Assembly: GCA_027946365.1 (NCBI GenBank)
Contig: JAPEUQ010000004.1
Coordinates: 3,348,001 to 3,412,000 of the forward strand
Source of the DNA: Kalmusia sp. IMI 367209
Lineage: Eukaryota > Ascomycota > Dothideomycetes > Pleosporales > Didymosphaeriaceae
DNA length: 64,000 bases
Direction: 5' to 3'
Below are positions 6,201 through 7,824 of this stretch, one piece after another (the first letter of the stretch is position 1; each line of letters opens with the position of its first letter). The notes beneath the pieces are model-generated. The model saw nothing but the letters and a program-made list of their open reading frames with translations. It ran no database searches and was not told the origin of the DNA. The position numbers and the translations under genes were made by a program.

Positions 6201-7824
6201 CTAATTGCGATTTTCGGCCGGATGTACTGCTTTCTCTGGAAATGCCAGCGTCTCGGCGGTCGATATGTTCGTATCACTCGCATTCGCATTCGTCGCTTCG
6301 TGTGCGAGGAATTCTGTTGATGGTCTGGAGATGCACTTCTCAGGAAGCTGTGGGCTCGTTGTGTGCCCTACTTCGACATCTACTGTCTCTAACGAATCTG
6401 TCCGTGATAGCTTCTTTGAGGGATGTGTGTCGATGTACTCGTCGTATGTCATACCCAGTTTCTTTGCTTCGCGGCGGATATGACGGACGCGCCATAGCCA
6501 GATAGCTTGGGAGAGAAAGATACCCGTTTCGAGAGTCATGCTAGTGGCTGTCAGTACCTCTTTGTATTTAGATAGCCGCATTTACTAACGCTACGATGTA
6601 CATGGAGCCACCGAGTGCATCGAAAGTGTGCTGAGCGACTAGATGCAGTCAGTTTGGTCTCTTTTACAATGTCAGCAAGATAGGTAAGGCCTACCTAGAG
6701 CCATCAACGAGAAGAAAGCACCGGAATAATCGATGGTAAGAAACCAAAAGTCTAGAGCTGTAAGCTACACTCTCACATCATGCACATTAAGAACTTACCG
6801 ATGCCAATGACGCGTCCTTGCCGCTTGGCCAGTTCGAAGTATGGCATCACTAGCCCAAGGCACTGCATGACCGATGCCAGGATAGCCATCATCATCATAG
6901 GCCATTCGATTCCCTTATAGTATGGTATCTAAGGTCCATTAGCTTAGGGACTATCCACGATCGGTGTGATATAGAATCGTACCCGAAGAGTAACGATGAG
7001 GATTGCTTCTGATCCAGCAAATACAGCGACCATGCCCAGAGTAGCTGCTGTTGCCGTCCAGGCTCTCCAACCACTATCTTTGGTCAGGGTTGCTGATTTG
7101 ATTTAAGCAAGCTCAACTACTCACTTGCCATAGTACAGCGTTTGGCCCCATGCAATAAGGGTCAGTCCGCCGAAACACTGCGGTTGTAATTGGAGAGCTA
7201 AACTAAATTTCTGCCAGTTGTCAGCACCCACGACCTTGTCTTATGCGGGGGCACTTACCTGAACGATGGCATAAACGCCAAAAGGTACAGCACCTAATAT
7301 TCTCAGCCCTTTGCGCAAGTTCATCCAAGATATGGCAACGCACAAGACGCCCACAGCATCAGCATCGTCCCCGGCAGTCCATCGGTATTCTTCCGTCGCC
7401 AGTTGTGCCATATTCTTTCTTTTGTGAGCGTTCGTTCGAATAGCAGAGATGCGAGCTTACTGTGGAAGTATCTACAATGAGTGAGCATTGATTCTTTGCC
7501 TCTCTAGGGAACGTAGGATCTTACTTGAATGCACCAGCAACTAAATCAGAAACTTGTCAGTGTCAGATTTCAATACGTGAGTCAGGTTGGGCTTACACTA
7601 CGGGGAATTAGCATACATCGTATCGTATCGTACAAGATCAAAACTTACCAGTACCGATGGTCTAGAATCATGGGCACACATGTCAGTGTCAATACGCTCG
7701 CTGCAGATAAAGGTGGTCCATACCCCGAGAACATCTGCTGCCTGTGCGTTGAGATCAGTGAACGTTAATCAGGAAAGCTTCGAGGTATACGCACCGGTGG
7801 AATCGATCCTTGAGGTTTCGTCAT
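6201..7824 (-). CDS. PQ-loop repeat membrane protein, 14 exons including a one-nucleotide exon
   Basis: Seven-helix PQ-loop protein (family members are vacuolar/lysosomal cationic amino-acid or sugar exporters). Minus-strand exons: 7795-7824, 7724-7741, 7649-7661, 7597 (single T), 7525-7540, 7461-7471, 7404-7414 joined through 7344-7414, 7259-7293, 7125-7210, 6983-7073, 6799-6928, 6695-6751, 6590-6638, 6201-6540. The sum is 948 bases, 315 residues. The first PQ motif reads VCWCIQILPQIWHNWRR followed by TDGLPGTML; the second area has QLQPQ and WGQTLYYG. Then come hydrophobic segments and ELAKRQGRVIGIDFWF, typical of the fungal branch. The last exon gives a hydrophilic tail rich in Ser and Thr. 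The valine codon before CWCIQ is assembled from three exons. Confidence is high for the family and most introns; the one-base exon is inferred from frame and splice sites. Confidence 0.85.

Follow-up and report, generated by a model that had tools for sequence, protein, structure and literature searches.

We found that a single T at position 7597 (minus strand) is flanked by the AG and the GT of two complete introns in a gene of the plant-dwelling fungus cf. Kalmusia sp. IMI 367209, and we put at roughly 0.9 the probability that this T is a genuine single-nucleotide exon of the gene, which would encode a transporter-like PQ-loop membrane protein. The gene lies in the window, as we call the whole stretch of 64,000 nucleotides that was analysed, within contig C25 (3,928,139 bases) of a genome of 30 contigs and 42,784,582 bases; the genome paper gives 42.78 Mbp in 30 contigs, from 208x short and 27x long reads (PMC10027605). 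We infer the inclusion of the T in the mRNA, the order of intron removal and the ancestry of the arrangement from sequence.

Gene structure and reading frame

The whole PQ-loop gene spans 6201-7824 on the minus strand, the strand of all features described here, and consists of 14 exons (30, 18, 13, 1, 16, 11, 71, 35, 86, 91, 130, 57, 49 and 340 nt, from exon 1 to exon 14) separated by 13 GT-AG introns of 46-62 nt. It encodes 315 aa, from an ATG at 7824-7822 in exon 1 (7795-7824, 30 nt) to a stop codon at 6203-6201. Exon 2 (7724-7741, 18 nt) precedes exon 3 (7649-7661, 13 nt, ACCATCGGTACTG), which encodes TIGT and ends ACT-G, in phase 1. There follow intron 3 (7598-7648, 51 nt), with donor GTAAGT, branch site TATGCTAAT (GCTAAT, 7612-7607, branch A at about 7608) and acceptor CGTAG (CCCCGTAG); the putative exon 4, the lone T (7597-7597); intron 4 (7541-7596, 56 nt), with donor GTAAGC, two copies of the branch site CTGAC (7566-7562 or 7560-7556) and the acceptor end GATTTAG; and exon 5 (7525-7540, 16 nt, TTGCTGGTGCATTCAA), which reads T-TGC-TGG-TGC-ATT-CAA and encodes CWCIQ. 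The microexon 6 (7461-7471, 11 nt) encodes ILP and two bases of a Q codon, and exon 7 (7344-7414, 71 nt) completes the first PQ motif (PQIWHNW). An initial annotation of this DNA had proposed the lone T at 7597 between introns of 51 and 56 nt, and its coordinates and letters all proved exact.

Exons 2 to 6 form a run of tiny exons (18, 13, 1, 16 and 11 nt). The stretch 7824-7461 at the 5′ end of the gene accommodates the first six exons (30, 18, 13, 1, 16 and 11 nt), separated by introns of 51-62 nt, such that its 364 bases hold just 89 coding bases. Several relatives' models likewise appear to skip the 11-nt exon. The product matched the Pfam PQ-loop family PF04193 at 71.7 bits against a cut-off of 22, a score obtained with a 316-aa version carrying one surplus Ala; by eye, the 315-aa product contains two PQ motifs (PQIW and QPQC), and Pfam gives a single stretch.

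Since introns 3 and 4 lie at phase 1 and phase 2 of one codon, the codon of Val21 would be put together from three exons (G + T + T), as initially annotated, with the T as its middle base (G|T|T). With the T kept, the frame runs through 315 aa without a stop, while with the T skipped translation ends after 47 codons; this, and the models of relatives described below, bear out the view that the T is needed for the PQ-loop frame. At the level of the mRNA, ATCGGTACTGTTTGCTGGTGCATT would denote the one-nucleotide exon, ATCGGTACTGTTGCTGGTGCATT skipping of the T, and ATCGGTACTGGTAATTGCTGGTGC use of a rival donor. Introns 3 and 4 are like the other 11 introns of the gene in their length (46-62 nt) and in the G at donor position 5; the base preceding the second donor is a T, whereas G is commoner there.

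We enumerated the splice paths between the fixed ends 7661 and 7525, using canonical GT-AG introns, up to three per path and each of at least 35 nt. This gave 42 paths, three of which were open and in frame, and two of which kept both flanking motifs. TIGTVCWCIQ without an extra residue came from one canonical path only, that of the 1-nt exon, while the other motif-keeping path was a single intron (7644-7541, donor GTTTTG) that turns Val into Gly-Asn. The assertion that the conserved sequence can be read only with the T therefore stood as regards TIGTVCWCIQ itself, although it had overlooked this second path, which is in frame with an extra residue. GC donors contributed no further path when introns were limited to two and the product to 12 aa. 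As a chance control, we put the 108-nt interval through 20,000 rounds of dinucleotide shuffling, leaving six bases at either end in place: an AG-N-GT giving two introns of 40-80 nt, the inner AG being preceded by a branch site, arose in 14/20,000 shuffles, and in 13/20,000 the lone base was also a T. On both strands of the 64-kb window, the same structure was present in one of 66 intron-like stretches of 90-130 nt, namely at this site.

The codon in relatives and in database models

Val or Ile was present at the position in 21/21 sequences of an alignment (A1) whose first row is the window protein and whose other 20 rows were chosen by hand among sequences intact at the site, so that A1 shows the norm at the codon, not its frequency. 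The TIGT residues of exon 3 were invariant or nearly so across these 21 chosen rows. When products were scored on a profile built from these 20 relatives, that of the 1-nt exon reached 509.3 bits, that of a Gly variant 504.8 bits and that of the Gly-Asn rival 499.7 bits, as against 396.8 for the NCBI model and 23.0 for the T-skipped product; because the rows were picked as intact, the constant Val or Ile and the 9.6-bit gap to the rival are partly built in, and the small gaps among the V, Gly and Gly-Asn products lean on the choice of rows.

A PQ-loop paralogue in the same genome (L017, G000:C25:2584700-2586400), which shares the contig at a distance of about 768 kb, is intronless in its N-terminal half and has a full codon at this place, ACG-ATA-TGC (T-I-C). 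Bipolaris maydis P0142 is nearer to this paralogue (84% and 62% identical to its two halves) than the window protein is (59% and 43%), and was dropped from the Pleosporales count for that reason. Another paralogue (L018, G000:C12:3110900-3112600) has, by eye, an intron immediately ahead of the codons ATT-TGT-TGG; it sits one base upstream of the intron 3 position and may represent an independent gain or a slid intron.

The NCBI model of the gene, P0001, reads GTIGTV-AGAFKYFHS-AVPFGV; in this model 7649 runs straight on to 7540 with no T, and exon 7 is omitted, and these 1 + 71 = 72 nt account for the 24 codons by which it (291) falls short of 315. It gave no Pfam match at E 0.001. The public model thus lacks 24 residues, among them those completing the first PQ motif, and needs correction. 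The annotation was made with Funannotate, from ab initio predictors and from proteins and ESTs of related taxa, and the term "RNA-seq" is absent from the main text of the genome paper (PMC10027605). N. cava and Didymosphaeria variabile had their genomes assembled in that study too (PMC10027605).

Three protein searches (the best 120 of 413, of 510 and of 267 matches) provided 144 different sequences, which we classified. The matches listed included 55 named models (56 with P0142) that we take to be from Pleosporales, an assignment presumed except where families were looked up: one was intact (Periconia P0007), five kept the frame but had one or two odd residues, 21 were broken right after GTxGT, and 28 were without the GTxGT pattern, most of them starting downstream or jumping it. 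Among the named non-Pleosporales models listed, 37/43 were intact, two odd and four without the motif. A normal sequence at the site in 1/55 named Pleosporales models (among the matches listed) indicates systematic mis-annotation, in which the tiny exon of relatives has seemingly been overlooked by annotation programs, and tools that forbid 1-nt exons, both gene callers and RNA aligners, are expected to repeat it. Broken models alone prove nothing, since neighbouring exons of 11-16 nt hamper annotation.

The lgn/jgi/ena proteins among the matches listed reached the site in 20/45 cases and began downstream in 25/45, and none was broken. All 20 that reach it have V or I, then C, L or F, then W (19 intact by pattern, P0141 by eye). 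For nine of these 20 (P0002, P0006, P0008, P0010, P0013, P0014, P0018, P0019 and P0020), named Pleosporales were the closest relatives among the matches listed; the nine lie on contigs of 1.3-5.1 kb and, judging from their uninterrupted ORFs on such short contigs, would be spliced transcripts. P0084, P0088 and P0120, on contigs of 8.5-54 kb, are probably genomic rather than transcript. P0002, the nearest among the matches listed (81% identical), reads GTIGTVCWCVQ. No transcript and genome pair from the same species spanned the site, the best being P0020 with Epicoccum nigrum P0051 (96% identical), whose start lies downstream of the site.

One defect recurred in exact form. In 12 named models, which represent 11 species with Kalmusia among them (P0001, P0003, P0009, P0028, P0031, P0035, P0039, P0052, P0053, P0074, P0122 and P0124, among the matches listed), exactly two bases lie between ACT and TGY-TGG, and back-translation forces these to be GT in seven models, GC in four and AA in one. 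In the GC and AA models, Val or Ile is restored solely by a T between the two bases; in the GT models, either a T between them or any base after them restores it; and the Kalmusia sequence holds exactly such a T. Because two GTs or two AGs can never be one base apart, the choice of a neighbouring site in a canonical single intron cannot yield a two-base model, and with such a slip excluded the base must be missing from inside the annotated intron. In the five GC and AA models, the deduced bases imply that it must be a T at the junction, provided that the residue is Val or Ile.

Neocucurbitaria P0065, read as one unspliced stretch, allowed one parse: a G, a 49-nt intron, one base (T or C) and a 57-nt intron, continuing N-TGY-TGG-TGY; the two acceptors lie 13 and 18 bases from their branch sites. 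No single-intron parse gave a three-base codon among those tested, which were parses without an extra residue; in a modest control, 219/20,000 shuffled middles parsed likewise. The peptide stretches of Lentithecium P0012 and Massarina P0015 force AT|GTAYGT, and in Sporormia P0040, Boeremia P0050 and Pyrenophora P0054 GT|GTAYGY is possible in 8/32 back-translations each; these five models would fit the second of the two introns and, taken alone, would fit a single phase-2 intron equally well. The broken Pleosporales models P0026, P0061 and P0066 were not accounted for by the two-base pattern or by the intron traces.

The two-base defect or the P0065 trace occurs in Didymosphaeriaceae, Massarinaceae, Lophiotremataceae, Didymellaceae, Pleosporaceae and Cucurbitariaceae (families looked up, the last being that of Neocucurbitaria P0065), and also in Lojkania, whose family placement is uncertain. 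This evidence comes indirectly, through protein models that gene callers produced; searches for relatives' DNA at the locus found none in viral contigs (with the window protein and alignment A2), genome contigs (A2) or plasmids (tblastn). Taken together, the 12 two-base models and P0065 suggest that the one-base exon may be conserved in orthologous genes.

Five in-frame models have Gly or Arg in place of Val or Ile: P0091 (Mollisia scopiformis), P0016, P0017, P0021 and P0023. These residues could reflect n1-G-n2 codons, as if the cDNA had been aligned to the stretch with the junction one base off. Mollisia is a Leotiomycete (looked up) and thus outside Pleosporales; the Gly of P0091 is compatible with the same one-base shift, as for an exon predating Pleosporales, and would make the exon older.

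Alternative explanations

The single 104-nt intron (7541-7644), with donor AA|GTTTTG, joins 7645 to 7540 (ACTGGTAA|TTGC) and gives ACTGGTAATTGC, in which GN replaces V and the first helix would be one residue longer. It is the sole other canonical path with both flanking motifs in frame, and the annotation of Pleomassaria P0011 (GTIGT-GI-CWCVQ) is compatible with it. However, its donor lacks the G at position 5 that is present in all 11 other introns, its length stands against 46-62 nt in the rest of the gene, and it gives no account of why a complete acceptor, a lone base and a complete donor lie inside it. Its extra residue was present in 0/20 lgn/jgi/ena sequences that reach the site (among the matches listed), and its product scored lower, by the 9.6 bits given above, on the profile of rows chosen as intact. 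Of the two motif-keeping canonical paths, we consider the 1-nt exon the better and the 104-nt intron improbable. We also considered a [D1,2] stwintron, in which the intron 7648-7598 would split the donor of an external intron, G|TGTAAGC...TTTAG, that is removed second. Stwintrons are known from Pezizomycotina (PMC6616335), and the G-intron-T layout would be flagged by a naive stwintron scan. Its product was read directly, as the 42-path enumeration did not cover stwintron products, and proved to be ACT|TTGCTGG (ACTGTTTGC), which leaves one base in the codon and is out of frame; moreover, the external donor would be a poor GTGTAA, and we give this reading almost no credence.

Two further explanations would make the lone T an artefact or a coincidence. 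A one-base indel in the assembly, hiding a true gene with one ordinary intron and an intact frame, would be in keeping with an assembly built on Nanopore reads (Raven, 27x), but these were combined with 208x Illumina reads and Pilon polishing (PMC10027605). An indel would not produce a full acceptor and a full donor around one base, and such an error is very unlikely because the same two-base codon is found in the models of Bimuria and nine more Pleosporales species (10 besides Kalmusia), while the model of Neocucurbitaria, the eleventh, looks like a single base enclosed by two introns. We similarly give little weight to a decaying pseudogene with a frameshift, in which the lone T would be coincidental. 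The automatic model P0001, 24 residues short and without a Pfam match at E 0.001, could be taken to point that way, but the remaining exons stay open and are separated by canonical introns across the full 315 aa, the same base deficit is seen again in models of other species, and the structure arose in just 14/20,000 shuffles.

Proposed splicing and comparison with known systems

Fungal introns of about 50 nt are usually recognised by intron definition. We propose that introns 3 and 4 are two ordinary short U2-type introns, each of which would be recognised as a unit in this way. As the acceptor AG of intron 3 and the donor GT of intron 4 are one base apart, the introns would be removed in succession, simultaneous spliceosomes on both being hardly possible. 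Either order appears workable: with intron 3 out first, the donor would become CUGU|GUAAGC, and with intron 4 out first, the acceptor would become GUAG|UUUGC. The initial annotation had intron 3 leave first, which would be possible but, as far as can be judged from the letters, not required, the GTAAGC donor being intact before any splicing. It had also likened the arrangement to stwintrons, a kinship that does not hold in the strict sense, since GTAAGC is intact before splicing and removal of either intron leaves a usable site. Without the T, the frame shifts and translation terminates after 47 codons, so that, if the gene works, the T must normally be included. Traces in gene models of several Pleosporales families make the arrangement look old. 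We would go further only speculatively: the lone T could be an ancestral exon, from the common ancestor of Pleosporales or earlier, which could be the most widely conserved one-base exon outside plants and was maybe kept since inclusion or skipping tunes the level of the transporter via nonsense-mediated decay, but we consider this rather doubtful.

In the literature searched, outside which most subscription journals lay, we found no published report of a one-base exon in a PQ-loop gene, and no paper joining PQ-loop with microexon or micro-exon with Pleosporales. The initial annotation knew of no single-nucleotide exon in fungi, a statement overtaken by the report of one in Fusarium CYP621A by Nelson and Syed in February 2026, described as the first in a fungal gene, supported by RNA reads in two species and reported within Fusarium, in 20 orthologues (PMC12940212). 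Among the papers found, the PQ-loop exon would be the second case in a nuclear fungal gene. If it is genuine, it places such an exon in an Ascomycota class other than that of Fusarium, apparently kept in several families of one order, and offers a limit case of splice-site pairing that is testable in small minigenes.

The CYP621A exon resembles the one proposed here in being one base inside an apparent single intron of a nuclear fungal gene, missed by automatic models; in both genes, it is the central letter of a codon belonging to a conserved motif and is needed for exon phase, which is 1 before it and 2 after it (PMC12940212). The two genes are unrelated, and the lone base is a G there (AG-G-GT) and a T here; the CYP621A exon is supported by RNA and was reported within Fusarium, whereas the PQ-loop traces extend across several Pleosporales families and come from gene models (PMC12940212). 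One-nucleotide exons of plants, in APC11 (PMC4674806) and VPS55 (PMC8831610), are likewise old, conserved and not in annotations, and their flanking introns are absent in other copies or species; they differ in being in plant genes and in having been shown by RT-PCR or RNA-seq (PMC4674806, PMC8831610). For APC11, the intron stretch measures 422 nt, and splicing in Arabidopsis is indifferent to the identity of the base (PMC4674806). Stwintrons share with the PQ-loop introns the adjacency of fungal U2 introns and obligatory successive removal, but in them a splice element of one intron is interrupted by the other, whereas the PQ-loop introns are both complete and a coding base would be retained (PMC6616335). 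A parallel in layout outside nuclear genes is in fungal mitochondrial rnl, where adjacent introns also have one retained base between them, although these are group II introns in an rRNA gene, with no reading frame to be kept (PMC12308204).
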